64,000 bases of DNA from a virus, in the IMG/VR virus record IMGVR_UViG_3300030419_006925, positions 1 to 64,000 of that record. One strand, written 5' to 3'. Of this stretch, positions 1 through 42,200 are shown in pieces. Made by a program: the position numbers and the translations under genes. Under the pieces are notes generated by a model. That model saw only the letters and a list, made by a program, of their open reading frames with translations. It had not been told where the DNA came from and ran no database searches. The first letter of the stretch is position 1; every line of letters begins with the position of its first letter.

Positions 1-419
1 GCATCTTCAACAATTGCACCATTTTGACTTAATACCTCTTTTCCATAGTCTACGTTTTTTCCAATCCCGTCTGAATCAGGGATGAGGACAACGTGATCCT
101 CTTCTACATTCTTTGGAATGTCTTTGCCTGTTGAATTAACAAGCAGTGTTTTATTAAAACCAAGCTCGATGAAAGCGTTGGCCATCTTGTTGCCTCCACC
201 GCCGACACCGACAAAACCCACATTAATAGACGAGGGGGCCGTATTCTCGGGGAGCAAGTCTTCATCGGAATACTCCATCTGTAACCCAAAATCCTCAACC
301 ATGCCGAAGTCTTCTGCATCCACTTCTTCGTGGTAACTGTCCTTCTCTTGATTAAAGGCCGGAGGTGGCTCTGCGGGAGGCAGAAAATCAAATTCGTTGT
401 TATCGTTTTCGTCTGACAT
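1..419 (-). CDS. Tubulin/FtsZ-like GTPase, N-terminal part only (runs off the window)
   Basis: An open frame starts at the ATG at 417-419 and runs without a stop past base 1, giving about 139 residues. An AAGGA ribosome binding site lies upstream, directly after the stop of the preceding gene. Residues 1-65 are acidic and low in complexity, with runs of Asp, Glu and Pro. The folded part then opens with GFVGVGGGGNKMANAF, a strand followed by a four-glycine loop, and continues with LLVNSTGKDI and a later DSDGIGKN. This order (glycine-rich loop, VNT-like strand, second glycine-bearing loop) is that of the nucleotide-binding half of FtsZ and tubulins, and resembles tubulin-like proteins of large phages. 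The GGGTGT/SG signature loop and the catalytic half lie outside the window, so GTPase activity is inferred. A different Rossmann-type nucleotide-binding protein is the main alternative. Confidence 0.6.
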   Translation of the reverse strand, partial: MSDENDNNEFDFLPPAEPPPAFNQEKDSYHEEVDAEDFGMVEDFGLQMEYSDEDLLPENTAPSSINVGFVGVGGGGNKMANAFIELGFNKTLLVNSTGKDIPKNVEEDHVVLIPDSDGIGKNVDYGKEVLSQNGAIVED

Positions 420-421
420 GT

Positions 422-955
422 TTACTTTCCTTGTAGTACTTTCGCGAGTTCTTCTTGGACGATCTTATTAAGTTCGTCTCTATCGATGGATTCAAATTTT
501 GCACCTCCAAAGGTGTCCATATTCATTCGACGACCGCCCCGGGGCGCGCCGCGACCAATCTTCTTTTTGAGTTCTTTATCTTTAAGTTCTCTCTCTTTTT
601 CCCGATCTCTGTCTGCTTTTGCAAGGCGACCTTTAGATGCGGCCCAAGCTTCTTCCTCGGCTTTATCTTTTCTGGCCTGTGTTCGGTCGCGGTCGCGCTG
701 TAATGCTGCTTCTTTGTCGTAATGCATAGAGCTAGGGTCATGTATCCTCGCATGCTCAGCGTCAGCTTCCATCTCTTTCGCGCGAGCTAGGCTGGCATCG
801 CGGCGCTGCTTTGCAAGTCTTTTTGACTTTTTAGACATCTTGGTGCCGGCCACCTTATCAACACTTCTCAAGGTATCATCCCACCAGCCTTCTTCAAGGC
901 TCTGTTCGATCTCCTCTTCAATCAGCTTTTTAAGCTCGCCTCTTGTAACCTTCAT
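422..955 (-). CDS. Highly charged protein with the shared helix motif at both ends
   Basis: 177 residues from the ATG at 955. This start has an AGGAG site about eight bases upstream; an upstream in-frame start at 1003 would overlap the Mre11-Rad50 gene and lacks a better site. The N-terminus, MKVTRGELKKLIEEEI, is the same amphipathic motif that begins the genes starting at 5258 and 5970. The C-terminus, DELNKIVQEELAKVLQGK, is a second copy of the same pattern. Between them is a very charged, Lys/Arg/Glu/Ala-rich, probably helical or coiled-coil stretch with a short Gly/Arg-rich piece (GRGAPRGGRR). I recognise no catalytic domain. The stop is two bases before the tubulin-like gene, so the two are probably co-translated. 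A structural, scaffold-like or head-packaged role is possible but not shown. Confidence 0.8.
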   Translation of the reverse strand: MKVTRGELKKLIEEEIEQSLEEGWWDDTLRSVDKVAGTKMSKKSKRLAKQRRDASLARAKEMEADAEHARIHDPSSMHYDKEAALQRDRDRTQARKDKAEEEAWAASKGRLAKADRDREKERELKDKELKKKIGRGAPRGGRRMNMDTFGGAKFESIDRDELNKIVQEELAKVLQGK

Positions 956-965
956 TGCGCATCTC

Positions 966-3900
966 CTATTGATTGACTCTTGCGTATCCTGATTTCTTTT
1001 CAATCACGATTTGCATGTCAACACAATCTTTGAGCGAATCAAGGTGAGAGATCAACAAAACATTCTTGAAATATACCTTAATTAGTTCCAAGATGCGGAT
1101 AAAACCCTCCATATTTTCTTCGTCTAGTGCTGTGCCGGGTTCATCGAGAATAAATAAATCGCTCTTAGGTAGTGACGAGACACTCAAAAGAGCCAAACGA
1201 ATTGCCATGGCGCACAAAGTTTTTTCAGCACCGGAGGCCATTTCAATGGGCCTTGGTTCGTGTTTTGGGTGTTTGATAAAGATATCAAATTTCTTTCCAG
1301 AATCCTCAAAAAAGATTTCGAAGTCCACAATGTTTGCTAAGACTTTCGCGATTTCTTGGTTGATAACTGGAAGTTTGCGCTTAATAATATCGTAAGCAAC
1401 CCCAGATGTATGCATGCAACGCATATAAAGATCATAGGCTGAATATTCCTCCTGTAGATTTAAATATTCTTGTTTTTGTTCTTTTATACTTTCTACTCTT
1501 TGTTCCCACGAGCCAACTTCCTTATAAAGAACCAAGGTTTGACCCTGACACTCTTCATGTTTGGTTGTGGCGCTATCTAATTTTGCCGTACACGATGCCA
1601 ACTCACTTGTGAACTCTTCGAAATTTTCGATGGCCTCTCTGTTCTCTTCATATTTTTGTCTTTTTTCTTCAAGATCTTTTAATTCATATCCCAATCGCTC
1701 AATCGATGTGTGATTTCTTTCGATGGACAAATTCAAATCAGCGATCTCATGAGTTGTTGAATTCTTTTTCTCAACAATCTTGTTGTATTTTTCTATTCGT
1801 TCTTCTACTAATTCAGGACGCAAGCTTCCTATCTTTAAATCCAGCGCCCTAAGTTTAATTCTTGAGTTCTTTTGATCGCCTTGAACATGCGCCAAATTAG
1901 CCACTGCAATATTTGCATCACGAATAAACTTGCATTGTGGATAATTCGTACCGCAAGGAATGCCATCTAAGAGTTTAGATTTTTTCTCGATATCTTCTAT
2001 TTGCTGCAACAATGAATCTTCAATGTTTGCTTGATTTTCTCTTTGTTCTCTCAGGCATGTGATTGTCTCCATCTGCTTTGATAAAATCTCTATGTTGATC
2101 TTTTGCAGATACTCTTCTATTTTGTGAACCACCTCTCTCTTGTCGGCCAAATCGGCTGTGTGTTGCTTATTCTCTTCTTCTATGGAAGAGACTTGAATTT
2201 GCTTCTTCTGAATGAGCCTCTTTGTATCTGCCACGTTGATTACTTCTTCTGGGATAGCTTCGATGCTCTGCCTCAGTTCGTCACAAGTTTGTGTGATTTG
2301 TTCTATTTCTGTTCTTAGTTGAACACACTTTTGTTCGTGGTTATTTAATTCTGCGCGTTTGTCCACCAAATGAAGATCGGCCTCTTCGATCTCTTCATCG
2401 TAGTTTCTCGCCTCAAGTCTCCGTAGGGCGCCCTTGAGGTCAGTGCTGTCTTCTTTCGCTATTTTAAATTTCTTCTCAAAAATTTCCAAATCAAGAAACT
2501 TGGCAATAATCTCCTTTCTTCGAGTGGAGCCTTCATCAATAAATGACAAGGCGCCGTGCTGAGATGCCATTGAGGAGATCAGAAAGTCTTCGCACTCTCC
2601 GAAGTGTTTTCTAATAATCGCATCTGTGTGTATTCGGCTCAAGCCATTTAGTGATATCGTGTCGCCCAAAACTTCATCATATACTTCAAAGTTGAGATCA
2701 GTTTTTGCTTCTAACGTCTCCTCTCCCTTTAGGCGTTTAATATATTTTTCAGCAGTCCTTTCGACTGTGTAGGTTTTGTGACCAACTACAATTGTTAACT
2801 TGCCTCGACAAAACTCCTTATTCTGGTTAATAACATTGAGATTCTTGCGCTCATTTTTCGAGGTTGTGTTAAAAAGAGTCCAAAGCACAGCATCAATAAT
2901 ACTGCTCTTCCCAGAATAGTTCTTCCCAAAGATCCCTGTAATGCCATTAAGTTCATCAAAGCTGACATTGTTGTTCTCCCCATAATTAAATAAGTTGTCA
3001 AATTCAAAATTAGTTAATTTCCAATTAACATTTCTGGATATATCATTTTCATCCTCGACCATCTTCTTATATTTTCGATTAAGTTCATAAATCTTTTCCA
3101 TCGTGGACGAATCTACCTGATATTCCTTTAGATATTCGCTCATCAACTCTTCCTGAATGTTGATGTCTCGTAGGTTTTCTGTCTTCAGGTTGTCAGTAAG
3201 CTCTGTTACGTCGCCGCGGGTTCCGGCGGCGCGATTAAGAAACGTCACCACTTCTGGCTTAAATCGATGTTTGGCAATATCCATCGCGCGCTTCATGGTA
3301 TTTAGCGGCAAATTATTGTTACTTACGATACGAAGCCTCGCACCCTCCGGAACATTCGCCCCCTTGGGCATGCGACCTTTCGGTGTGAGTTCCAATGTAA
3401 TGAACGGCTTCGGGTTCTTGAACACAACCGGCTCGATGTCCCAATTGTCCTTTGATTGAATATCCCAAATAAGAATACCCTTGTCGTTGGTTTCTCCGTG
3501 GTTCTGCTGTACGGTGCTCCCGGCGTACCAGATACGACCTGCTTCGTCAAGGAATTGGCGACGATGAATATCGCCAAGCATTGCAAAATCAAATCCATCA
3601 AAAATATTCATCGTATCTTCGCCATTTGACATAATCCATCCAACATCTGTCTTGCAGTTGCTGATCGATCCATGATAAAGAGCGATATTGATCCTGTCTG
3701 GATTGGTCGGTTTGATCCAGTTTTCGCGATCAAATACCGAAAGAACATTCAAACAAAACTTATCGTCAATGTTTGTTTCTCCAGAATCTTTCAACAAATG
3801 AAGATTCGGATGATTAAGCGCATTAAAAATTGGTGTCAAGGCGTCTTGACGGCTGCTATTCTTTAAGTTGCCATCATGATTACCTAAAATCGCATATGTG

Positions 3901-4115
3901 GGCGCAATGTTTGCCAAGCTCTCAAAGAACCGCGAACACATATCAACATATTCAGGAGAGATTTGCGTTTTGGTGTGCGCAACATCTCCGCAATGAATAA
4001 TATAATCGACCTTTTCTTCCCTCAGTTTTTCATACAACTGCTCGAAGATGATCCGATACTCATAATGATATTTTAAATTTTTAATGTGAGTATCGCTAAT
4101 ATGAGCAAACTTCAC
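966..4115 (-). CDS. Single-chain Mre11-Rad50 (SbcD-SbcC, gp47-gp46-like) recombination nuclease-ATPase
   Basis: 1049 residues from a GTG start (4113-4115) behind a GGAGG site. Residues 1 to about 340 are an Mre11/SbcD calcineurin-like phosphoesterase with its motifs in order: DTH, GDVAH, GNHD, HGS and GDIHRRQF. From about residue 370 a Rad50/SbcC ATPase begins. It has a Walker A GKNYSGKSS near 395, a long heptad-rich coiled coil to about 930, a signature-like MASGAEKT near 960 and a Walker B LFILDEPG near 990. In the coil apex, near residues 712-720, the zinc-hook position reads CGTNYPQC rather than CxxC. In T4 the two halves are separate genes (47 and 46) that process DNA ends for recombination-dependent replication; here they form one uninterrupted frame. 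The role in end resection follows from the family. The next upstream frame is a 39-residue ORF ending just before its ribosome binding site. Confidence 0.93.
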   Translation of the reverse strand: MKFAHISDTHIKNLKYHYEYRIIFEQLYEKLREEKVDYIIHCGDVAHTKTQISPEYVDMCSRFFESLANIAPTYAILGNHDGNLKNSSRQDALTPIFNALNHPNLHLLKDSGETNIDDKFCLNVLSVFDRENWIKPTNPDRINIALYHGSISNCKTDVGWIMSNGEDTMNIFDGFDFAMLGDIHRRQFLDEAGRIWYAGSTVQQNHGETNDKGILIWDIQSKDNWDIEPVVFKNPKPFITLELTPKGRMPKGANVPEGARLRIVSNNNLPLNTMKRAMDIAKHRFKPEVVTFLNRAAGTRGDVTELTDNLKTENLRDINIQEELMSEYLKEYQVDSSTMEKIYELNRKYKKMVEDENDISRNVNWKLTNFEFDNLFNYGENNNVSFDELNGITGIFGKNYSGKSSIIDAVLWTLFNTTSKNERKNLNVINQNKEFCRGKLTIVVGHKTYTVERTAEKYIKRLKGEETLEAKTDLNFEVYDEVLGDTISLNGLSRIHTDAIIRKHFGECEDFLISSMASQHGALSFIDEGSTRRKEIIAKFLDLEIFEKKFKIAKEDSTDLKGALRRLEARNYDEEIEEADLHLVDKRAELNNHEQKCVQLRTEIEQITQTCDELRQSIEAIPEEVINVADTKRLIQKKQIQVSSIEEENKQHTADLADKREVVHKIEEYLQKINIEILSKQMETITCLREQRENQANIEDSLLQQIEDIEKKSKLLDGIPCGTNYPQCKFIRDANIAVANLAHVQGDQKNSRIKLRALDLKIGSLRPELVEERIEKYNKIVEKKNSTTHEIADLNLSIERNHTSIERLGYELKDLEEKRQKYEENREAIENFEEFTSELASCTAKLDSATTKHEECQGQTLVLYKEVGSWEQRVESIKEQKQEYLNLQEEYSAYDLYMRCMHTSGVAYDIIKRKLPVINQEIAKVLANIVDFEIFFEDSGKKFDIFIKHPKHEPRPIEMASGAEKTLCAMAIRLALLSVSSLPKSDLFILDEPGTALDEENMEGFIRILELIKVYFKNVLLISHLDSLKDCVDMQIVIEKKSGYARVNQ

Positions 4116-4126
4116 ATATCCTCCAC

Positions 4127-4246
4127 TTAGTTAAGATAGGGCGTCCCAAAACAGGAATGTAGCATTATCGGCAACACAAACATGCCGAAATAATAACCAA
4201 TCTCAAAACACACAACTCTGATAAACGTGTCTACAATAAAGTACAT
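4127..4246 (-). CDS. Small predicted membrane peptide (39 residues)
   Basis: A short frame begins at the ATG at 4244-4246, preceded by GAGGG at a spacing of about five bases, and ends with TAA at 4127-4129. That stop lies immediately before the GGAGG that serves the Mre11-Rad50 gene, so translation of the two is probably linked. The product (MYFIVDTFIRVVC..., ending GTPYLN) is strongly hydrophobic through residues 2-32, with few charges, and could form one membrane helix. It contains two cysteines. No family is recognised. It fills what would otherwise be the only sizeable intergenic gap in the left part of the window. The support is the ribosome binding site, the stop placement and the hydrophobic character; a non-coding leader is the alternative. 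Confidence 0.5.
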   Translation of the reverse strand: MYFIVDTFIRVVCFEIGYYFGMFVLPIMLHSCFGTPYLN

Positions 4247-4262
4247 TTTGCCCTCATATGTT

Positions 4263-4291
4263 AATATACCACGTCTCTATTGACTATGCAA
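4263..4291 (-). promoter_or_regulatory. Possible sigma-70-type promoter before the 39-residue ORF and Mre11-Rad50 gene
   Basis: On the minus strand a TTGCAT box (4286-4291) and a TATATT box (4263-4268) are separated by 17 bases. The -10 box matches five of six consensus positions and the -35 box three of six. It overlaps the end of the upstream gene and sits about 17 bases before the start of the 39-residue ORF. Without transcript data this is only a candidate. Confidence 0.3.
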
Positions 4292-5258
4292 GTATTTTCT
4301 TTCGATTTCTATAATTTTTCCAAGTAATCTTGCTTTCTTTCATTCTTTGCTTTTGATGCTGCTGTGCTCTTTTGTTTGTTGCATCAATAAGTCCTTGATC
4401 TAATTTCTCATCATCATCGGGAGTTACGATCATTTCCTCATCAGGCAAATCTAATGCGGCTCTTTCACCAGAGCCCATGTACTCTCCATATTGATAATTG
4501 TAGTAATCTTCTGCTGTCATCCCCAGTTCCGGCAAGTAGTAGTCTCCGCTAATTTTATCTGGATCCAGCATAATTATCTGTTCTTCCATTCCGCTTCCCG
4601 GAACAATCTGTAGTTCATCATGGGACGCTACTACGTTCATTGCATCAACAAATTCGCCTTGATGGGCTTTAAAAAAACCATCGATGTTCTCTTCATAATC
4701 GCCTTGATATTCGCGATCATGATCAAGATCTAAATTCAAATCAACATTACCATATTGAAGGATCGGCTTAAGGCCTTGTTCCATTCTTTCGGCATTTTCC
4801 TTTTTGTCTTGCATAACCTTTACCATCACACTATAACTTGGTGGAAGCACAGTAACCTTGCCGTCTGAGCCGGGGGCGTGGACCACAGAATCGTTCCCTT
4901 TACCCCATCGAAATGCATATTGGTTATTTAGCTGGTCAACTAATTCTTCAAATTGAGCTTCATCGGTTTCTGCCGCGGCGATGTTTAGTTGTGTTTGTCT
5001 ATCAAAATCTGCGGCGCGGGTATCCGAATATTGATCGGTGGCCAACTTCAAGCCTCCAATGCCCACTCCAAGGCCCAAGGCGCCAAGTGCTGCATCGCGG
5101 GCCTTAGCTTTTCTCGCTTTCCATTTTGCAGCATCCCAGTCTGCTTTCTCGTTTTCAGAAATCAGCGCAGCAAACTCTTCATCAAGGTACTTGTCTAAAA
5201 GATATAACCGTACCTCTTCCAAAATAATCTGCCTAAGCCTATTCTCTGTGAGTTTCAT
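4284..5258 (-). CDS. Unknown protein with the shared N-terminal helix motif
   Basis: 324 residues from the ATG at 5258. An upstream in-frame GTG at 5285 would overlap the previous gene, while the ATG begins the motif shared with its neighbours, so 5258 is preferred. Its ribosome binding site is weak (AAGG), suggesting coupling to the gene ending at 5266. The N-terminus MKLTENRLRQIILEEV repeats the motif of the genes starting at 955 and 5970. A charged helical part follows, then a short Gly/Ala-rich hydrophobic segment near residues 59-75 (ALGALGLGVGIGGLKLA) that could be a membrane or hinge helix. After that come an acidic, Tyr-rich region and a basic C-terminus (YRNRKK). No known domain is recognised. 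The mixed build suggests a virion or head-internal protein, but that is inference. Confidence 0.8.
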   Translation of the reverse strand: MKLTENRLRQIILEEVRLYLLDKYLDEEFAALISENEKADWDAAKWKARKAKARDAALGALGLGVGIGGLKLATDQYSDTRAADFDRQTQLNIAAAETDEAQFEELVDQLNNQYAFRWGKGNDSVVHAPGSDGKVTVLPPSYSVMVKVMQDKKENAERMEQGLKPILQYGNVDLNLDLDHDREYQGDYEENIDGFFKAHQGEFVDAMNVVASHDELQIVPGSGMEEQIIMLDPDKISGDYYLPELGMTAEDYYNYQYGEYMGSGERAALDLPDEEMIVTPDDDEKLDQGLIDATNKRAQQHQKQRMKESKITWKNYRNRKKILA

Positions 5259-5265
5259 TGTTGCC

Positions 5266-5970
5266 TTACAGACCCCACATCCCACTTAAAAAACCAGAAC
5301 CAATTTCGTTGATCAGCTTGTCTCTCAGCGGTTCCGGTACCAGATTGTCTCGGACAACAACGTCGATAGCCTGATCGAAATATTGCGCGTGTCGTCGAAG
5401 GGTATCTCGCACCTCGTCGTAGTTGTTGGCGCCGTCTATATAAGCATCAACTGCCATGGCTTCGGATGGACCACCTCTTGTGCTAGTGTCTACCATTTCA
5501 GCCGGAAGCCCATTAATCTTACCAAGTATGTGCTCGATGCGTGAATGAAGCGCTTTTAAGTTTTCGGTGGCTTCGTTGTAGTTGCTGCCTTCGTTTACTG
5601 GTTCGATCTCTGTGTCTTTTACGTGCTTGGCGTATTCTCTAATAATGCCGGCCAATTCTTTGAGAAGGGGCTGATCTCTCGATCGCAATCCATAAGGGGT
5701 TGGGTAACCGTCACCGCTATCTGGTCTTGGAAACACTTGTGTTCCTTTTTGTTTTACCGCTGCGGTTATTTCAAACATTAGTTCTAATGCGCGTGCAATC
5801 TCATTCAAATCATCGCGGACGGCTCGATGGCGCTGCTTCTTGGTGTCTGCGGCGCCGCGTTTATCCATTGCAGTCATGCGGGCTTCAAGATCTTCCAACG
5901 AAGCTTCTGATAATTTTTTTGAGATCTCCTCTTGAATGATCTCTTTTAGTCTTGATGTAGTAATTTTCAT
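5266..5970 (-). CDS. Unknown helical protein with the shared N-terminal helix motif
   Basis: 234 residues from the ATG at 5970, preceded by GAGGG. An upstream GTG at 5982 would enter the primase gene and is less likely. The first residues, MKITTSRLKEIIQEEISKKL, are the clearest copy of the motif also found at the starts 955 and 5258. The rest looks mostly alpha-helical (for example ARALELMFEITAAV and LHSRIEHILGKI) with a Pro/Gly-rich linker near residues 80-95. There is no signal peptide, membrane segment or metal-binding motif. It lies between primase and the gene ending at 4284, with an eight-base gap to the latter's start, so it probably belongs to the same transcript. Function unknown. 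Confidence 0.82.
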   Translation of the reverse strand: MKITTSRLKEIIQEEISKKLSEASLEDLEARMTAMDKRGAADTKKQRHRAVRDDLNEIARALELMFEITAAVKQKGTQVFPRPDSGDGYPTPYGLRSRDQPLLKELAGIIREYAKHVKDTEIEPVNEGSNYNEATENLKALHSRIEHILGKINGLPAEMVDTSTRGGPSEAMAVDAYIDGANNYDEVRDTLRRHAQYFDQAIDVVVRDNLVPEPLRDKLINEIGSGFLSGMWGL

Positions 5971-5978
5971 GGGTACCC

Positions 5979-6917
5979 TCACACTGCCGATAGTAAATCC
6001 AACAATAAATAGTTGTCTCTATCGATAAAGAATGCGCTTTTCTTTCTTTCCTCAAACACTTCTTTTGGCATGGAGCCTACATCTTCGTAGCCGGATACAT
6101 CGATTTTATGAAGTTCGATATCGTATTCCAGCAACATCTTAATAATCCGGCGCTCTTTTTCTGCGGCATCTGGGTCGAGGGCAACGTAGACGGGCGTGTC
6201 GTTTCGTACAATCTTTCGTAATAGCTCTGACCCGGGCCTAAGTGTTGAACCCAATATAGGAACAGCATTTCCTGCGACCAATGCATCAAAAACTCCTTCT
6301 ACCAAAACAAGATCTGAATTCCAGTCAATAAATAGCTCATTAAACACTATATCCTTCGACGCTTTTGGGTTTTTATACTTATAGGAATCGCCCGTGTAAG
6401 ACCTCGCTATAAAATAGCTGCAATCGCCATCATCATTAAATGATGGAACAATAATCCTGTTGCGATATTGACCACTAAAACAAAAGCCAATTTTCCATTT
6501 AAGAATATCGGCCTTTGTGACGCCGCGTTTCTGCAGATAACTTAAAGCGTAGGCACCAGTTGCTGGAACGTTCTGTGTTGCAAGGCTTATGAATTCCTCT
6601 GGGAGTTCCACTTTTGCTTTGCTTTCTCTACTGACTCCTCCCATAAAGAGGTCAGCAAATCTTTCAATATCTGGCCTGTCTGATATTCTGTCCCATTTCT
6701 GTAGTTGCAGATACGAACCATAATATCTAACAAGACGCCTAATATTACGACCCCGATAATCACAAACCCAACACTTATAAGCATTTTTATCCAGATTAAC
6801 AGAGAACTTACGCTTGTGGTGATTGCATGACGGGCACGAGAAAAGTAACTCGCTGCCTTTGTTTGAGTGGTGCCCAAGAACTTCATTTAATATTTTTTTC
6901 GCTTCTTTTTTATTCAT
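5979..6917 (-). CDS. DNA primase: zinc-binding plus Toprim domains, no helicase
   Basis: 312 residues with a GAGGG site before the ATG. A zinc-binding domain is visible as CPSC (residues 28-31) and CWVC (49-52) in a small N-terminal fold typical of DnaG and T7-type primases. The Toprim catalytic core follows: LVLVEGVFDA near residues 202-211 supplies the acidic metal ligand, and YVALDPDAAEK near 240-250 supplies the DxD pair. The protein would make RNA primers for lagging-strand synthesis at the phage fork. It ends without a RecA-like helicase domain, so the replicative helicase must be encoded elsewhere. The length fits stand-alone phage primases. The next gene, with the shared N-terminal motif, begins only eight bases downstream. 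Confidence 0.9.
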   Translation of the reverse strand: MNKKEAKKILNEVLGHHSNKGSELLFSCPSCNHHKRKFSVNLDKNAYKCWVCDYRGRNIRRLVRYYGSYLQLQKWDRISDRPDIERFADLFMGGVSRESKAKVELPEEFISLATQNVPATGAYALSYLQKRGVTKADILKWKIGFCFSGQYRNRIIVPSFNDDGDCSYFIARSYTGDSYKYKNPKASKDIVFNELFIDWNSDLVLVEGVFDALVAGNAVPILGSTLRPGSELLRKIVRNDTPVYVALDPDAAEKERRIIKMLLEYDIELHKIDVSGYEDVGSMPKEVFEERKKSAFFIDRDNYLLLDLLSAV

Positions 6918-7042: not shown

Positions 7043-7621
7043 TCACGCTGCAGATTCAAGTGCTGCGATAATCTGTGCCTTTGTTGTGCGCGTGTTCACT
7101 TTCAAGCCTTGTTGCTTTGCTACTTCAAGAAGCTCAGCCTTCTTCATGGAAGCACTCCAGTTTGCCATTTGGGGAGTCTCTGCGGTGTTGCCATTGTCGA
7201 CGATTGATACCAACTCGATCTCGAAGTTGATGTTCTTTCCGGCTAAGGGATGATTGAAGTCAAGGACAACCTCGTTCTCATGCAAGGCTTCTACCTTTGC
7301 AACAAAGGGGCCGCGAGGACCATTACCCTGAATCATTCGACCAACCTCAAATTCAAAGTCGGGCGCAAATGCCGTCTTGGGAATAGCTTGCACTGATGCC
7401 TCTCTTCGTGGGCCATAAGCCTCATCGGCAGACAGCGACACAGATTTCTGTTCGCCGGCAGTCATTCCGACAAGTGCGGAATCAAATCCCGGGATCATCT
7501 GCCCGGAACCTACTTGGAAATCTAGAGTGCGCCCACGCTCGCGCGAATTGTCAAACTCTGTTCCGTCTTCAAATGTGCCTCTATAGTGCACGTGGACAGT
7601 GTGTCCATTTTCTACTTTCAT
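7043..7621 (-). CDS. SlyD-type FKBP peptidyl-prolyl isomerase with C-terminal SAP/HeH-like segment
   Basis: 192 residues from the ATG at 7621, which has a strong AGGAG site; the longer frame from 7666 is not needed. Residues 1-145 follow the SlyD/FKBP pattern: VHYRGTFEDGTEFDNS, then GQMIPGFDSAL (the isomerase core). An inserted flap domain is followed by DFNHPLAGKNINFEIE, the typical end of the SlyD fold. Such enzymes speed proline isomerisation and act as folding chaperones. After a short linker, residues about 158-192 (KKAELLEVAKQQGLKV, then TKAQIIAALE) match the two-helix pattern of SAP/HeH/Rho-N segments, which often bind DNA or RNA. I do not see the metal-binding His-rich tail of bacterial SlyD. 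The gene has its own candidate promoter at 7657-7685. Confidence 0.9.
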   Translation of the reverse strand: MKVENGHTVHVHYRGTFEDGTEFDNSRERGRTLDFQVGSGQMIPGFDSALVGMTAGEQKSVSLSADEAYGPRREASVQAIPKTAFAPDFEFEVGRMIQGNGPRGPFVAKVEALHENEVVLDFNHPLAGKNINFEIELVSIVDNGNTAETPQMANWSASMKKAELLEVAKQQGLKVNTRTTKAQIIAALESAA

Positions 7622-7656
7622 TATTTCTCCTATTAGTGATGAAAACCATCTTGATA

Positions 7657-7685
7657 AAGATAACACATATATTAATTTATGTCAA
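7657..7685 (-). promoter_or_regulatory. Strong-looking sigma-70-type promoter with extended -10 before the FKBP gene
   Basis: On the minus strand TTGACA (7680-7685, perfect consensus) is followed after 17 bases by TATCTT (7657-7662), with TGT directly before the -10 box as in extended -10 promoters. The -35 box lies in the last codons of the small membrane protein gene and the -10 box in the 50-base gap before the FKBP start. ATGTGTTAT around the -10 also occurs in the 12126-12154 candidate. Confidence 0.55.
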
Positions 7686-24343: not shown

Positions 24344-27300
24344 TTATTTTAGCAACACATCAACATCAATTCTAACTAGCTCTACAATGGATAAATAATC
24401 ATACGGCCAATTATAGCTAATCTCGAAACCATCTTTTGTTACCACATTATCAAATATCTGTGAAGTTGTTCCATCAATCTGGTCTGCCACCATATCATAA
24501 TAATCGTGCATACCACGCTGCTTCACCTTAAACACCATCCATCGAAGGTGGTCGTTCTTTAAAATTTCTTTGTTGATCATTTCGTTATCAGACAAATTGT
24601 GAGCAACTGAGTGTTTTTGTATCGAGGCTTTTTTATAATTTCTTGGCGCTAAGTTCTGCCACATATAGTTCAGGTCGTCTTTGTCGAATTCATATTTGAA
24701 TTCAAAAACATACATAGCAATAGCATCAATATCTTCATTTCTAACAAAATCAAATTGTGGCGGGAATACATACTTTTCTCTAACCAATCTTTCTAGATTT
24801 CTAATCGACTGGCCAGCGACCGTTGTGGAATCTCCCGCCGTGGTGCCGGGGTATCCCTCAAGGGCGGCACGAACTCGCGATGGGGGAATTTGAATAAATT
24901 TCTTCCTATATTTTCTATCTATCGAAGCCTCTTTGTTAATTCTTTCCAACTCAACCTGCTCGACCTCATCAATAACGTATGGTATCGCAACAACGGCTTC
25001 CCAAACTGTTTGTTTCTTTTTCAATACTCCAAGCTTTCTTGTACTGTTCTCGCGATCAAAGCCCAACAAGTTAGATAAGGATTTAACACGTTTGTAGAGT
25101 GAAGAATTTTTTGCGAGATCGGAGATATCATAATCATTGTAAATGCTAGCCGATAACGTCATTTCATAATGAAATTTCAACCAACTTTCTGGAATGTCTG
25201 TTATTCCAAACTTAATGCCTTTGCTTGGATCATCGATGACCTTTCCAAACTGATGCCACATACCAACAGGAGTTGAAGTGGCACCATAGGTTGGCTGTGT
25301 CGGGGACGCGTCTGTGAAGTCGGCCATGGGGGTTTCCCATTTTGGCTGGATAACCCATCTTTTGCCAACAGCTTTGTTGGTTGTATTCCTTGGGTTACCA
25401 AACTGATCTCTCTCTGCTTCAAGCACTCTCTCCACACCAAACAGATTAAAGGCAGAACTTAGTTGCATAGAATTAACATCAATTCTATATCCATCATAAA
25501 TTGATGGAATAGTTTTATCTCCGCTAGGCTGAATTGGGCCATATGAGGCGCTGCGAGAAGACTCTACTGGCAACAATACCGGCTGATGGGGGTCGCCGGC
25601 TGCGGATGCAGTCAATTTGAGACGGTATCCTGAATCAAATCTGCGGTATGAAACTTTCGTTTCAGCCAATATTCTTTCCAGTGAATATGCATCCGAAACT
25701 GCTTTTCCATCATCCACATGTGGGCGGAAAACCAAATCGACGCGTGCCATTCCATCAAAGTAAGGAGGAGTAAATGCTCCGTTATATCCACTAAAACTGT
25801 CTCTAGCGGATCTTAAGAATGGCGATAGCAGGGCGCCGGATCCAGTTGGGCGGCCGGCGCAGTCTGGACCGAAAGCCGACACTCGATTATACATCGTGTA
25901 TGTCTGCTTAAATCCATTTGAGCCTGTGAATCTTGAAGGAAACTGTTCTGGGCGCCACGTGCCGCGGCCGGTGTTACCATTCGAGGCGCAAACTTTTACG
26001 CCGCGGCGGCCATAATATCCATTCTGTTCGTCGTTGTGATCGTATTCCTGATGGTAATATAACTTACCATTGTGGGAAGGCTCAATCCAAATTCGTCCCA
26101 TATATACCGAACCGCTGGGAAATCTAAGATCGTCTGGTACTACTTTGGACCTTAGCGATGTTAAGCCCCCATCTTCCAAGAAAAAGTTTGGAACAGCGCC
26201 GAAGAAGTTTCTTGCTTTTAATTCATATAATTTCTCACTACCTCCCATGGTCATCGAAGCAGTGATCACGTGTCGCGCGCTGCCATTTTGCGGGTTCGTA
26301 ACTGCCTGTACATCAGCGCCAGTCACCGCAAAACTCATTGACGGATGTGATTCCATTTCCACTATTCCCAATTCTGCCATATGTTGTTGTGGGTTAATGA
26401 TGGTCTCAAACGGAAGTCGCTTGTCCCAATACATGCCACCATTATATCCCTCCGGCGTAGCAGATGCAACACAGCCAGTGATCGACAAGGCCCAGTTATT
26501 ATCAGCACTAGCGGAGCCGTACCACTCTCTTTGTACTTTATCGTTGTCGGTGATTATTGGATAATCGACTGCAATTCCCGATTTAATTGAATTGTAAAGA
26601 ATGCCCGGAGAAAACAGGGGGTCTATTATTGGCTTGAGCCAGCCCGGGTAATAACGGAACGCATCGCGTCCGGACAATGTAAAGTCGTCTCCGCCATATG
26701 CTGGGCGGGATGAAACTTGCAACTGATCCGCAAAAGATCTAGAGAATGCTGAGACTAAATCAATTGTTGCGTCGGCCGGGTAGAAGCCCCTATATGGGTT
26801 ATATTTGATGGCAGCCTCGCAAGTCATTTTAATTTCTTCTGCTTGCAAGACTGTGTCTCTTGTTGTTCCGAGCAGTGTCCAGAAATCAGTGTTGGAATAG
26901 TCAATATAAAAATCCGATCCACTGCTGGCGATTGGTCTAATATATCTACGCGGGTTGTCACCTTTATCGCGTTGGAAGGAGCTTGTTCCGGCAGGGTTTG
27001 TGCCGGGAATTTCAAAAACATCGAACTTGTGGTAAGGGTTTATTCCATATTTTAAATACGACTCTACGTGCTCGCTAATTCTATATTCAGGTACAATGTT
27101 GAAACCTCTTGCTATTAGCTTTAAATCTGCACGGAAATCATCATAATTGTCATACCACGGAGCAGATGCCGAAACAACAAACGAGCCCGTACTTTCAAAT
27201 ATTCCAGATTGATCGGGAGCATCCCACGCAGCCTCGCCGGCGTAAGGTTGAATTTTATTGGCGGTAGCAAATATATCTTGTGTCTTGGCCGCATGGCCGA

Positions 27301-30300
27301 CTGCAGATAATGCTGATGGCTGGGGGGCATACGAGGGCGCTACCGACGTCGGGGTACCAAGCACATGCTTTCTGGCATACAGTGCACTGGGAGCCATCCA
27401 CTCATGGGGAGCAGGTACTCCATTTGAGGCGCTTGGGGTGATTGTCTTATAGCCCCACCATGTATTTTGTAATTCTCCCGATTTGGTTCGTCTATTAATG
27501 TTGCCAGAATGGGTTGTGCCAGTTAGTATTGTTGTTCTTGTCAAAAAGTCCTCTGGCGGATCTAGCGGCCATAGGCTCTGCGATACAAGGGACTGCCAGC
27601 CAGTCATGTCGCGGGATATACCAAATGAATTCAAGGGCCATTCGATGCCCGGCGCATATGTGGGGAGGCGATCGGTGGCGCTGTCGCGCCAAAATTCATT
27701 GAGGTATCCAACGCGCGTTGCGGATCTCGAAAGAAATTCATTTCTCATTGATGGAAAAACATTCTGTGAGTATAATATCCAATTCAATTTGTATCCGGGG
27801 GTCTTGGTGATTGCAATCACATCTTTTAGGGGAGTCTGTATCCCGTGTGGATTAACATTTGCGAACTCGTTCATCGCCGTTTCGTTAAAGAAGTTTGTTT
27901 CATTTGTGTGAATGGCTTTTAATGTTATGTTGTTTTCTTCGCCAACTTTACTAGCCATGCTAGCCGGCGCATCGAAATTAATATAACTGGGCCGGCCCTT
28001 TAGGGAAAGCGGCGGCATTCTAAATTCACGAAGTTTAAGTGAGGAGCCGGTGACACATCTCAGTACATTCAATTTCTTTTCGTGTCTTAATATGGGATGT
28101 TCTTGTTGTCTAAATTTTTTCCACGTCCAGCCGTATTGATATCCTCTTCTTGTCAACAAGAGGTTCAAGTATGAAGTGTTTGCTTGGTGAACGTTGCCAC
28201 TAGCAGAGTGAACCAAATACTGACTTGAATAAAGCGACTCATCTGGCGCCTTAGTATCTATAATAACGTTTGGAAGCTTGGGGGCGCCTAGGCGCGCTGG
28301 GTATTGAGAAAGGGTGTTATTCGCTATGTTCGCTTCGGTGAAAATGTGACCAAGTGTATTGTAAATTGTGCCGTCAGATACTGACTTGCCGAAATCGTCA
28401 CGGCGGCCGGAGCGGCCGTGTACGGGATCCAGCGTCAACAAATTAAGAACGTTACACGATTGAAATTTTGATGTCGTTCGATCTCCGCGCGTGGGAGATC
28501 CTGTAATATCTGATTGTGTTACAAAGTTATAATATGACTCAAATCCGGTGGAGGCGCTGAAAAATGGCATTCTTTCGGGATCCCAAGTGTTTTGGCGGCC
28601 GGCATATCTGAGATTGTCCGGATCTGACAGGGACTGGGTAATCCAGCGATACTGTTTGTCGGTTCGGGGAATTACATGCTGGATGTTATAATTGTCATAT
28701 ATTGATTCACAAGTATTAAACGTATATGAAGAACTATAGTGATCGAGCGTAGGTGTGCAGCCGGCTGGCACCCCACCAGTGCCATATTTCAAGCCTGTAT
28801 CATTTGAAGAATGAGAATACACAATCGCCATGGCATGATTATCGTCTTCGACTTGATTCTTGATAGAGTAAGTAAACATATCGTTATTTCCGATAGTTTC
28901 AGAATCATTGGTTCCATCTCCCATACGATACCACCCGACAATGGATGCTGATGCGTATGTGCTAGCCGTTAAATCACAGGGAACTCCGGAATTATATATG
29001 CTGGTAACTTCCGATGCCTGCAGTGCCCCACTGAAGAATGAAACATCAGTCATGGCGCCCGTGAATTCATATGAGCCGGGCGTGGGGTGAGTACCAATAA
29101 GAACCGTACCTTCAACATCCAAGGGAGCGTAGTTTCTAAAGTTGTTCTGTGTGGCGTCCATTTCTCCGATTCGAGCATAGGCATCTCCGGAGGCTGACAC
29201 AACCTGACTAACGCCGTTGACGTAAATCGACGGCTTTGTAATAGTGTCGTCCGTCCAGCCCGGGGTCGAGCCAGATGATAGCGCATTGTATGCAGATGCA
29301 GAAAAGACGACAACAATGTGATTCCAAGATTCGGTCACAACGGACGCGCTAAGCTGTTGGAATTGCACTGTTCTATTGTTGTTGTTCCCGTCGGTAGTTC
29401 GCAAGTCCATTCTGACATACGTGGTTCCGGGTACGCCGGGGGCGCTCTGATCTGCAAGAGCTTGTTGTCCCAGATATATATGAATACCCGGATTTGAAGC
29501 GTAATAGCCAATACTGAGCAAGGTGTTTGAGATGTTGGGCCTGCTCACCGGCGTGCCAGTACGCATATACGTAGGCCAGACCCACATGGCAACTGACCAT
29601 TGGGCCGGTCCATTTTGCCCATCATACAAGAATTTGCTCTTATATGTGCTTCCCGTAATTAAGAAGCCGGATCCCTTGGGCGTTGTATCTGTATATGGCC
29701 ATTCGACTGCAGAAGTGTTCGTCAAGTGTGAGCCAGAGTAAACTGGCGTAATTGTTTCAGTTCTGGTTACTATTCTTTTGTTGTTCCTGTGTATTTTGTG
29801 GAATCCCGGCAACTCTTCGTAGGTTGCCCCGGGGGTAGAAACATGTAACGAATCGCGTCCGAATCTTGCTGTGTGTCTAGCGAGATGAGAATATAGGCCA
29901 TAATCTTTATCATGAATATCTCGAACGCGAGATAGGGACGGCGTTCCGCCGGCAGGTTCGGATTCAGATCCGGAGGGCCCTTGTGATGGTTTTTTAACTG
30001 ATAAGTTTCGATACGAAATGCAGTTGTAGGGAGAGTATTCTCCTCCCTTGAAGTCTTGGTAGCCGCGTGATTGCACCTCGATTCCACCGGGAGCGCTGAA
30101 TCTGTTAACAATTACGCTCTTATTAACCGTTCCCGTTAAATATCCTGTATCATAATCATCAACAAACTTAAAGTGTCCTTCCTGTTCGCGATGTACATCT
30201 AATATGGTTCGCACATTTGTGGTGCTGTTAACATTACTGAGTTGATCTGGCAAGGTTGGCTGGTTTTCCACAAATTGCCGGGGATTATTATACCGACCAC

Positions 30301-33300
30301 CAATGCTTACGATCTCATGTACTTCTCTATAATTTCCAATTGGACCATAATGCATTTGAGAAGGATAGCTTGTGGACGCGTCCATGGAACTAGTCACCAT
30401 GCGAATATTTTTGATATTTACCGGCCTCTTGGCTATTGCATCTCGATATAAATAAGCCTTTGGAAATGGTGCATGTGGATAAGGCTCAGAATGATCGGAG
30501 ACTCTCAAATCCGGAGGAGGATAATCTGGACCGACCATACCAATCGCACCACTGACATTCAGGTCTCGGGAGCCATGGAGGCCACTGCTTCCGGGTCGGG
30601 TACCGAGTAGAATTTTCCACGCTTCGGGGCGGGACGTCGTACTATCTGAGCCCTCATTCAGAGGGATGTGTCTCGATTGATGGCCGCCAACATATCTTTC
30701 AGTAAAGGGCCCTTGCATTGGCTTTTCTAACTGGGGCCCGTAGACATCGTTGTGAAGATTGGTGATCTCAATGCTTCCTGATACTAAGTGAACTACCTCT
30801 TTATTAAATCCGGATTCAACCGAGGAACTCATTATATTAAAAGGAAAAGCAATTGAGGACTTGACATTCTTGTAGCCTATTCCGCTTTCCCAATCGCGGC
30901 CATGTTGTACTTTGAAGACTCTTTTAAATTTTCTTATTTTATTTTTAGGTAAAGTTTCATCATTAAATTCTCTTGGAGATACCCGATCTCTAGTCAGTGC
31001 AAGAAGAACATTTGTGGGTACATAAATATTATTGTTCGTGCTCACGGGTCCGCCGGGCTTTAGGGCGGTAAACGTATAATCAAGACTCTTTTGTGGTTCA
31101 AAATTTACACCGCCTTTGATTGTTTGCGTTGTTCCCCTAGAGGACGGACTCTCTGTTGTTCGATTCGCATACGGATTCTCTATCGTAAAACTCACAGGGC
31201 CGCCAAGGGCTCGGCGCTTAAAGAGATCTTTTGTGTATTTTGTTCCGTCGGCCAACGATGTGACCAGCGCGCTGGAGGACAATCGCGGCGATGAATATAT
31301 TACGTCTCTGTAAATATCTCTATGAGAGTCGATGATTATATCACCGCTTGTTATTTCTTCTGCGCTGGCGCTGGCCCGGGCTCTCCAAAATTCTGGTCGT
31401 ACTGTTGCATCCCGAGGCGAGGAGGGTACCGGAGAAGAGCCGCGGAGCCAATTGTAGCTCTGTTCTATAATTCCGCCCATTGATGCATCAACTTCGGCGT
31501 CATGACTGTCGATCATCGGTAAACGAGATTGGTATTTGTTTCTTTCTAACACATGGCTTTCAATAACGTTTTTAACTTCTGGTATGAAGTCGGAAGATGC
31601 CGGCACCATTTGTTCTATTATCTCGGTTATCGAATCATCAAACCATTTGTAATATTCTATATATTTTTCAACTTCGGCGACGTCAGACACCCTTCTAAAG
31701 AACATCTGTCTCAGTTTTTCAAGATCTTTATATCGATCACGATATCTGTTAACCGGCGCGCCAATAAGATTATGGAAGTCGGTTACGCCAGCAAAAAAAG
31801 ACAACATTTCTTCAGAAATTGACGCGTACAAGCTTTTTTCGATTGAGTAGATAAAATTAGGAATAATCTCCTCACGCTTCAAGTTCTGGAACATCACGTC
31901 TTCGTCGGAAAAGATTTGCACCATATCCGAAGCAACAGCTTGTTCTGGATCAATAAACTTATATGTATTAATGGCTCTCTTGTCAACTACATCGCTGGAA
32001 GATGTTGAAAAATCGTATCCCAAGCCATCGTATTGGTAGCCAGAAATCATACCCAATTCGCCAAAATTATCTCGTGTCTCTTGGGAGCCTGAACTAAAAT
32101 CTTGTACAATAAACTGTCCTATATTGTCTGAAGAGGTTACATTTAGGAAGTTCCAATTCAAAGCCAAAGTGTCTCTATTTCTAGGCGTGTAACCCCAACC
32201 GGCCTGATCGTCTCCGTCACCAGCACTTCCAGAATACAATGCTGTAATGTGCTGGTAGGAGCCCGAAATTCCGATGTTTTCGGGATCCAGTGCGTGTTGC
32301 AACAGCGAATTGTTGTCGATATATTTGGCCCAATACTTCGTGGAAGATATCAAAACATCCGACGGATGAACCACTGCTCCCGTTAAATCATTACGATGTG
32401 CACCAACGAACAGTCGCTTAGCTGCTCTGACAAAGTTTTGTCCTAAAGTTGAATCTATTGAAGCGCTAACTGTAAATGATCTATGGAGGTCCGCATTTCG
32501 CGGGTTGTATCCAGTAAACACAACATAATAGCCCTGCTCGCCGGGAGTGGACCAGCCGGCTGGTGTTGTTTCGGCGATGTATATTCGATCACCTTTCTTC
32601 GGCTTAATTCTAAATGACAAGTTCCAAAGCTCATTGTTGTATACATCAGAATAGGTGCTGCTTGTTAAAGCGAAACCGTTTCCGTTATTGGCGCCATCAG
32701 GCAGCGATGCGGTTAATTTAAAATATACATCATTCGAACCTTTTACATCTCTAACGGCATAAACATTAAAATTACAATGATTGTCTTGCTGTGGCACAAA
32801 AATGGTGCTGGTGCCGTCCTTGTTGGCGGTGGAGCCTGTGTCAACAGTCGTCATGCCGAATAAGGACGAGGTGTTGAATGATTCGATCTTTCTGTCTAAT
32901 TTTCTATTATGTTTCGAATAGAAGGGGAATATTATATTTGTCTCAACCGTAAATCCGAGCGCATCCTCAATTGGGTTGCGACCATCAGAAGCGGTGCCCA
33001 AGCCGCCAAGGATATATCCAGCCGACTCTGCATTTGTTGAAGATTTTTTCTGGTATATGACCGACCCAGTGTGTTGGCCGTGATTTAGATTTAGACAGTT
33101 ATCTCTCAGTAAGCGTTGCTGCAGATTGTTTCTGAGGATGTATTCATTATTGTTGGATCGTACATTTAATCTCAGCAATTTATCATCAATATTGAAACAC
33201 CTTAAGACATTCCTAATTGATTTTTCGGTACCTTTGGATTTGTACATGCTAGATAAATTGTTGTACAGATTTGTGTAAATTAGGTTTTTTGTTTCAGTGA

Positions 33301-39244: not shown

Positions 39245-42200
39245 CTATCCCGGGCCATCACACATATTGCCTTTGGCGTCGTAAGGAGTGGAGCGCAACT
39301 TCCGGCGTTGCCACCAAGAAAGCAGGCCGGCGCCGGGAGACGGCATTATTCTTGCTCTCATATTTCTTAAGAAGATCTTTGCTGCTCCTTCGCTATAATT
39401 ATCGCCCGGCTTCCAACTGCGGGAGTTGTAATATGCTCGGAACATTTTCTTAATTCTTGCTTTTGAATTCCTCAAAAGCAGGCGATCCCAGTTGTCCCAC
39501 TCTTTAACAAATAGGCCACCGAAAAAGCCGGGTTGGCGATTGTAGTACTCTTGCCACCCTTCTGCACCATATGTGCCACTCTTTTTCATGTCATAGGTAA
39601 TGGTATCGAGCGTATATGTTTCTCCAAAAATTGGCCACCAGAACGGAGATCTTCCCGTGATCTCTCCCTCGACTTCGTGCAAGTACGCTATCATTCCCGG
39701 CTTAGCTCTAATTCCATAGTGCTTCGGTGAGTCGCTCACATCAATCCAATCTTCGATATTACTACTATCAACAAAAATCTCATCAAGCAGTGGCACGCTT
39801 GTGGTTGGAACCCATCTGGTTGCGTCTCCGGGGCCCACTGTTACCTCGCCGATTGATGACAAGAATCCCATATCGTTATACAGTGCCAAAATTGCTGTTA
39901 CCTTTTTCATCGAGAAAATATAGCTTGTCATTACCTTATACTTTGCATCATTTTTGAGCATATTGAGCAAACAGAACAATAACTTGCTGTTACCCGTAAA
40001 TGACTGAGTTTCACCGATTAATAAGTCCAGTGCATCTACCGAAACCGTTGTTACTAGAACCTTGGATGTTCCATAGTAAAAGTTGATACCATATTGAACT
40101 CCCATCTTGCCTTCAATGCCGACAACCTCATTATCTTTGTTGGTAACGGTCTTCATTGTTCCGGGATATACATCAGAAATTCTCAAATCGTGGTCATTTG
40201 ACATAATTATGCTTAGGGCGTCACCAACTTTGTGTTGTTCCCCGTTGATACTTATAAACTTTTCTATTGCGAAGAAATTGGTTGTTGTTGGGGTTGCTTC
40301 GCTCAGATCTGGGATGTCTCCTATTGGCATAAATTCTTCGGCCACACCGGTGGGGGATTGAGGACCGGTTCGTTCTCTACCGGGTACATTTTTATTGCTA
40401 CCCTCTGTTCCTGCATCTTTAATTGCCTTCGCGTCGGTGCGCTGTACAGTTCTTTTTATCGTTCCAACATCAACTGATTTGGCGACCGGTCGCAACAAGT
40501 CTACGTTCAAGTCATTTGGGTTGTGTAATTCTTCGCCAGTATAAAACATCTTGTCGCCGGCCTCATCAACTTGAGAATGGAAATACCCAACGTAATCATC
40601 GCCAAAGTCAAATCCATTATTCGGATCGTTGTCTTGTGCTATTCTCCATTCGCCGCCAGAGGTATAAAAAACGTCGGGCTTATCGGGGTCCACGGGTGCA
40701 GGATCGTAGAGTTCCCTAAATTGCTCAACAAGTTTGTAATCAAATATCTGCAACGGATCACCTGCAGTGGGGCAGAGGTTCATGAACAACCAATAATCCA
40801 AATCAAAGATGTCTGGTACGAATCCGTTGGCAGCCATATTGTCAACTAGTTTTTCGCCCATAACATTCAATTGTATTTTGACCAGTTCTGTCAATATCAG
40901 CTTTGCTTCTTCTTCCAGCATCTGCACTGCTTCAAAATTCTCATCTCGACGATAACCTTGAAGAGTCTGGAAAAAACCAGCATCACCAGCTAATTTTGCA
41001 TCCCAAAGACTTTGAACATATTTAGACTTTTTCTTGCCGGTTTCCACATCTTTATAGCGCATATTGTATGCTTCTCTAAAAGGGTAGCCGTATTCTTGTT
41101 GAAAATCATTAATAATATCCATAGCTTCTTGAATTGGCGGCGTGGGCACAACTGTCTGTTCCTCATCGACCAAAAATTTATAATACTGAACCGATTGCTC
41201 AAGGAATCCATACCAGAACATATCATCCTTAAAGGGATTAAACGATTCCCAAAATGCAGATTGCACATCTTTGAATCCTTCCTCCATATGTTCTACTATG
41301 TAGGCAGCAAAAATGTTGCTAAAGTTGTCTGGAAATTTTGGCATAATCTTGGAGAAGACTCCGATCGCCTTGAAAATATGAGTACTGGCATAGATTCTAA
41401 TCGCAGCATCTATAAGGCCCATCATTCCGGCCTTAGCTGGTCGATTCATAATTCGGTTAAACGGAACTTCTACTGCACAGTCAGGATTATTCTTTAATCT
41501 TGGATCTTCTTGCAGCAATGGGTATCTCTGATCGATCTTTCCTTTGATTTCCTCAAAATCGATCAGGTTTTGATTTCTCGGCTTACAAGGAGAGTATTCA
41601 GGGAAAAGCACCTGAGTAAATCCCATCCAGCCATCATATTTAAGTGGCTTAACATACAGAGGGGGGTTGGTGTAAGAACCTCCAAATTTTGATGGATCCA
41701 AATAAATGGCGCGCGCATTCTCAGCACCTCTCAGGTATTGATCATAGCTAATCCCAAGGATCATGTCATCATTGCTTGGGCCGCGGGTATATTCATTGCC
41801 AAACAAATCCACATCAGTAACACTAATTGAATCATAAGGATTTCCAGTTTCAGGATCGACATAATATAGATCCGACTTGGTCAGATAATCGTAATCCATT
41901 CCGTATTTCCATCCGGTCTCGTTTTCTCCAATTTCTTTGCAAAATCTCTTGAAAAGCTTCGTCATATAATCGTTGTAGTTATCGTACTCGGTCGCTATCG
42001 TCTGACCTGAAATATCTGCCAAGAGAGCTACTTGTGGTGGATATTGTTGATTTAAGACAGTCATAGCGCGAGCAAACTGTGGATAATCTGCCAAGGACAG
42101 ATCGGGCTCCACCGGCAAGTCTAATTTCTTAACCGGCTGGGCGTGGAACCCATTCAAACCCTCATCCACGGCTAAAAATTCAAACTCTCTTGCTCTTAAG

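Follow-up and report, generated by a model that had tools for sequence, protein, structure and literature searches.

In phage T4, as described in excerpts of PMC9026906, the prohead protease gp21 cuts after L/I-x-E and internal proteins carry N-terminal targeting propeptides of 10–19 residues; in the T4 record, ipIII and ipI have their [L/I]xE at E10 and E19, respectively. The same excerpts describe Alt, a packaged ADP-ribosyltransferase that gp21 cuts at both ends, and the parts consulted of PMC9026906, PMC5694885 and PMC7411985 describe ejection proteins and a gp21-like protease cutting after glutamate in the giant phages phiKZ and SPN3US. Here we describe two short tags in the uncultured virus record IMGVR_UViG_3300030419_006925 (104,181 bases), of which bases 1–64,000 are the stretch analyzed (the window, 64,000 nucleotides). 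Tag 1 starts three adjacent window proteins (P1, P2, and P3), while tag 2, unrelated to it, is found elsewhere in this phage's protein set. We consider it likely that they are two interchangeable, cleavable capsid-targeting propeptides.

Like the T4 capsid-targeting sequence (CTS) of IPI, IPII, and IPIII, both tags are short N-terminal stretches that start with MK, precede unrelated bodies and often end at [L/I]xE, and in most tagged contigs tested the protease (S77, gp21) and the capsid protein (gp23) belong to the T4 families. Unlike it, they consist of a longer helix (22 residues) and a W-containing 14-mer, i.e., two codes versus one, they have enzymes among their putative cargo, and they occur also internally or at C-termini. 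Tag copies at both ends, seen in P1 and in proteins of four other loci (L120, L035, L182, and L220), recall Alt, to which no homology was found, nor sought. In phiKZ and SPN3US a gp21-type protease likewise processes numerous proteins of the head contents, which offers another likeness, by description and not by sequence, but no short common tag of this kind is described for them in the excerpts of PMC9026906.

Tag 1 in the window and its parent record

A first-pass annotation of this DNA had pointed to a helix motif at the start of three otherwise unrelated proteins and at the end of one of them. The motif, MK(I/L)T..xL(K/R)xII.EE(h), is indeed found in its N-terminal form by a six-frame regular-expression scan of the window, at three minus-strand ATGs (955, 5258, and 5970) and at no others, and its core occurs at four window sites in total, one of them (472) in the second copy at the C-terminus of P1. 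With a tag-1 profile the N-terminal copies scored 28, 32, and 41 bits versus 13 for the C-terminal one. When the 21 long open reading frames (ORFs) of the window were shuffled 300 times there were no N-anchored matches and 0.19 core matches per shuffle. After removing the first 22 residues the best cross-match between the three bodies had E = 1.3, in agreement with their being unrelated. The rest of the record contains one further N-terminal tag 1, on a short protein with its ATG at 102017, as a profile scan confirmed, and a weak core match at 79281, away from any protein start. The tag of P3 was modeled, with low confidence, as a helix over residues 5–22 with a break after it; the mean predicted local distance difference test scores of the structures were 52 for P3 and 41 for P2.

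Two tags with a common end in uncultured phages

A degenerate DNA pattern for tag 1 (consensus MKITKxQLKQIIKEEL) matched at least 120 IMG/VR stretches, many of them with 2–5 copies. Among the stretches listed, 246 tagged ORFs were detected with a looser motif, and the 226 tag-1 ORFs of at least 60 amino acids (aa), from 111 loci, fell into 186 body clusters. The pattern had just three matches in prokaryotic genomes (bacteria and archaea, 257 Gb), and two of the three contigs hold tag arrays and look viral. A relaxed pattern was run on 42 whole records and found tag 1 in each of the 31 tagged contigs, among them our own record (1–13 copies per contig), in none of 10 random contigs and not in T4, and the reversed pattern was found in none of the 42; since tagged contigs had been picked for having the tag, the information here lies in the zero counts and the copy numbers alone. 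Tag 2 (MKLLLENWRKYLNE) was present in at least 119 IMG/VR stretches, and the 221 ORFs from the stretches listed gave 95 body clusters. In our phage it appears as the protein starts MKLLLENWRKHLNE, MKLLLENWRQYLLE, MKLILENWRLFAE, and MEPIFENWRKFVT, and in a looser form at the start of a NUDIX protein. Ten of the 31 contigs with tag 1, our own record among them, also carry it, and the two tags occur together in 47 of 219 tagged loci.

To avoid circularity, the loci scanned with each profile were those retrieved by the other tag, duplicates included. Tag 1 was N-terminal in 71 cases, C-terminal in two and internal in four (1,611 ORFs), so the possibility raised by the first-pass annotation that the motif is equally frequent at random helix positions is not borne out. 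Tag 2 was N-terminal in 37 cases, internal in one and never C-terminal (1,465 ORFs), and random loci (819 ORFs, all frames) had a single weak tag-1 match and no tag 2. The abundance in uncultured phages and the second tag family go beyond that annotation, as does the end of the tags described below.

Both tags tend to end at [L/I]xE. Selection used residues 1–16 (tag 1) or 1–10 (tag 2) only, leaving the triplet outside both searches, and one protein was counted per body cluster. The triplet closes tag 1 in 109 of 230 non-redundant bodies (local shuffles, mean 29.4, maximum 43) and tag 2 in 93 of 117 (mean 11.8, maximum 24). Within tag 1 the glutamate depends on its paired leucine at three positions (E22 on L20, odds ratio 15.6; E21 on L19, 5.3; E19 on L17, 30), which means that the triplet slides as a unit, and a fixed helix pattern would not account for such shifts. 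Shared ancestry of related tags makes the p-values too small, but the direction holds. Directly past the triplet, conservation drops to background in both tags, and E is followed by A, G, or S in 42% of tag-1 cases versus 23% in the background, but in only 30% of tag-2 cases. In our phage six of nine tagged proteins have the triplet, at 22 in P1 and P3, at 27 in P2 and at 13–14 in three of tag-2 type.

The two tags also replace one another on homologous bodies. An AAA_33 P-loop kinase-type body (62% over 209 aa), for which no phage relative was found, is preceded by tag 1 in L094 but by tag 2 in L184, and three further pairs of homologous bodies have different tags (L030/L173, L119/L226, and L092/L206). 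In some ORFs internal tags split parts that elsewhere are separate genes (e.g., L082 vs. L010). Copies between domains, resembling fused cargo of a polyprotein, were observed in L082, L010, L093, L112, L151, and L197.

At the DNA level the tags behave differently. Tag 1 is kept as a peptide, with 11 different DNAs among 12 bodies sharing identical 16 residues, whereas tag 2 is partly common as DNA, the 24-mer ATGAAACTCCTACTTGAAAATTGG being present in 20 of 38 non-redundant bodies with identical peptide (0.03 expected from codon use) and a 26-mer (ATGAAACTCCTACTTGAAAATTGG plus two bases) in at least 119 IMG/VR stretches. Little is conserved 5' of the ATG past a weak ribosome-site signal. An orphan tag-2 minigene (MKLLLENWRGM*; genome positions 91043–91078, minus strand, L003) ends in a stop directly before another ORF, i.e., a tag without cargo.

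Regarding the bodies, a Pfam search with 102 proteins (94 tag-2 bodies and eight from our phage, three of these with tag 1) gave 35 families, including NUDIX (three), AAA_33 (two), protein kinase (two) and one match each of HAD, GNAT, RNase T and zeta-toxin-like type. The 119 tag-1 proteins of at least 100 aa (one per cluster) had few matches, to 19 families and mostly weak. Names among the PHROGs matches of the cargo were nudix hydrolases, polynucleotide kinases, and 5'-3' deoxyribonucleotidase. Three tag-2 bodies (L206:4509–4871, L236:4259–4651, and L222:5554–6003) begin with YHGTS, YHGSS, or FHYS, which we take to recall ADP-ribosyltransferases. A tag-like helix (DEDKLKEAILSVLKKHF) was also seen at the end of a protein with a metalloprotease-like SHELVHH motif (genome positions 85241–86095, minus strand, L003).

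Head genes and the weighing of a proposed capsid-targeting function

Among 31 tagged contigs larger than 60 kb, 30 were tested for gp21 (the contig of L100 was left out) and 21 of them have a homologue (PF03420), 20 of which also encode gp23. The propeptide of the capsid protein ends at LxE in 21 of 21 capsid proteins of tagged contigs, and all 14 gp21 examined have L[T/S]E near their N-terminus, at 22–25 (the set came from 17 head clusters after dropping three without a motif-detected gp21). Tagged genes lie among head genes in seven of the 17 head clusters read, in two of which (L325 and L328) a tagged gene had itself fetched the contig. Our own record encodes T4-type baseplate proteins, which mark it as a fragment of a T4-type phage. 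The tagged phages are probably marine, a label that comes from titles of metagenome-assembled genome contigs, not from sample data.

A conserved protein of about 140 aa (protein X), encoded after gp21 and present in 10 of the 14 head clusters with gp21, has a longer, tag-1-like N-terminal helix that ends at LxE. Its matches to the tag-1 profile rank in the top 1.5–4.3% of 2,462 N-termini, and it is possibly a core protein.

The nearest named capsid proteins are those of Microcystis phage Mel-JY01, Flavobacterium immuto phages, and Rhodothermus RM378. The relaxed tag-1 pattern was absent from the three whole records of these phages, and the profile had no match in the first 50 kb of each. A blastn search of the phage collection with the capsid-gene locus gave no named relative, and searches of openly licensed papers in PubMed Central (PMC) gave no report of tag 1 or tag 2.

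The most likely explanation for all this is a cleavable targeting propeptide. The N-terminal amphipathic helix (about residues 1–16) would bind the prohead core (scaffold, protease, and core proteins), so that any protein with a tag would be built into the T4-type prohead during assembly. The gp21-type protease would then cut after [L/I]-x-E, at residue 22 in tag 1 and at residue 14 in tag 2, freeing inside the head a cargo that would enter the next cell together with the ejected DNA. A head-loading tag as in T4 was already the suggestion of the first-pass annotation, and it is now supported by the N-terminal position, the unrelated bodies and the [L/I]xE end, together with the presence of T4-type protease and capsid genes, the location in head clusters and the exchange with a second tag; the near absence from prokaryotic genomes and from random contigs further points to a phage-specific signal.

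Several observations weigh against this explanation. No profile similarity to the T4 CTS was found (−38/−30 bits for ipIII, −44/−32 for ipI), so the tags are better regarded as functional analogues than as members by descent; they would work like the CTS while being unrelated to it by the profile test, a putative new variant of targeting propeptide. Derivation of tag 2 as a copy of the gp21 or capsid propeptide was not supported, there being no significant likeness to either. More than half of the tag-1 proteins (121 of 230) have no triplet at 19–25, and in our phage it is missing in three of nine tagged proteins and in P2 is found only at 27. Regarding the head genes, gp21 was not found in nine of the 30 tagged contigs, two of them larger than 120 kb; neither gp23 nor an HK97-type protease was found in any of the nine, which fits truncation. 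Nor was gp23 found in our own record, where gp21 was not searched, and contig truncation may explain this absence. Lastly, gp21 was also present in four of five random IMG/VR contigs larger than 60 kb (4/21 of all those tried, out of 34, the 13 short ones below about 10 kb being left out). By this control the co-occurrence is no enrichment: large contigs picked at random often encode gp21 as well, and finding it in tagged ones fits a link without proving it and by itself counts for little.

Three other explanations have to be considered. It seems unlikely that the tags mark parts of the prohead core or scaffold, which would enter the prohead, be cut and then leave, instead of cargo for the host. 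Such a role would suit protein X, with its LxE-ending helix, and the mostly short tag-1 bodies without family match, but the tag-2 cargo includes enzymes without a scaffold role (NUDIX, AAA_33/polynucleotide-kinase type, protein kinase, and others) and the bodies vary between phages, even in the slot that separates primase from SbcC. A helix that stays on the protein and docks it to a partner outside the head (replisome, RNA polymerase, or phage tubulin), with LxE reflecting amphipathic periodicity plus a cap, is in our opinion quite improbable, given that L and E move jointly at 19, 21, and 22, that two unrelated helices of different length share the same end triplet, that tags are swapped on homologous bodies and that they are present in head clusters; what speaks for it is the location of the window tags among primase, SbcC, and tubulin-like genes and the share of tag-1 proteins lacking LxE at 19–25. 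Finally, a selfish or recombination element spreading as DNA, with the common peptide as a by-product, would account for the exact 24-mer and 26-mer of tag 2 and for the orphan minigene at 91078, but tag 1 is conserved as peptide and not as DNA, and the scarce conservation 5' of the ATG also argues against such an element, which we regard as very improbable.

Returning to the capsid-targeting propeptides, we give an even chance to a broader proposal, in which these uncultured, probably marine T4-type phages have a two-code, interchangeable delivery system. Either tag would load any protein into the head, with a dozen or more copies per genome possible, and hundreds of mostly unknown proteins plus several enzyme types would be delivered; fusion of cargos would give polyproteins that are cut at internal sites, and tag 2 would spread as a short DNA cassette that helps recruit new cargo. 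If the tags are indeed targeting propeptides, the first 22 (or 14) residues would predict a virion passenger that acts first in the next host, hundreds of unannotated proteins would become candidate early effectors, ejected with the genome and open to testing, and a phage could bring a wide variety of proteins along when it infects. The tags could also serve as portable, self-removing address labels for loading phage heads with proteins.

Gene context and other features of the window

The coordinates of the features are given in Table 1. The order in the window is primase, P3, P2, SbcC, P1, the tubulin-like gene, and the contig end. In L093 the primase is followed by a 170-aa protein, the P3 homologue, a different tagged protein and SbcC. 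In L120 the order is SbcC, the P1 homologue, a tubulin-family protein, two tagged proteins, and the large terminase, about 3.4 kb past the tubulin gene; the homologue of the gene start in the window (L120:1489–2628) matches PF00091 with E = 1.4e-8. From this synteny, with the terminase following in L120, the missing head genes probably lie just past the left end of the window. L120 was the only locus retrieved for P1 in the related-locus search, which gave no relative of P3, and tblastn of the phage collection with P2 and the tag consensus had no matches, with a low-complexity filter that may hide the tag.

Table 1. Features of the tagged region of the window, and protein X in four head clusters
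Feature	Position	Strand	Description
Gene start	3..419	-	Homologue in L120 of the tubulin/FtsZ family; the window fragment itself matches nothing
P1	422..955	-	177 aa, tag at both ends; body conserved in L120
C-terminal helix copy of P1	425..490	-	Weak, 13 bits; conserved in the homologue in L120
Tag 1 of P1	890..955	-	22 codons; end L20-E21-E22 / G23, predicted prohead-protease cut (from the LxE position profile)
SbcC-like gene	966..4115	-	Syntenic landmark between P2 and P1
P2	4284..5258	-	324 aa, tagged; body without known relatives
Tag 1 of P2	5193..5258	-	Lacks LxE at 22; closest candidates L25-D26-E27 / E28 and I-S-E35 / N
P3	5266..5970	-	234 aa, tagged; homologue L093:1882-2793 (52%), same place beside primase
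Tag 1 of P3	5905..5970	-	End L20-S21-E22 / A23
DNA primase	5979..6917	-	Syntenic landmark before P3
Protein X	L314:11549-11968, L316:3211-3612, L321:9494-9904, L322:3592-4020		

Beyond the primase, a 207-aa protein (7043–7666, minus strand) has what we presume to be the look of an FKBP-type isomerase; its C-terminal stretch is common to several PHROGs, one of them annotated as endonuclease VII. Further along the window, in the tail and structural region, two ORFs stand out by their size, 3574 and 2345 aa (24344–35068 and 39245–46282, minus strand).

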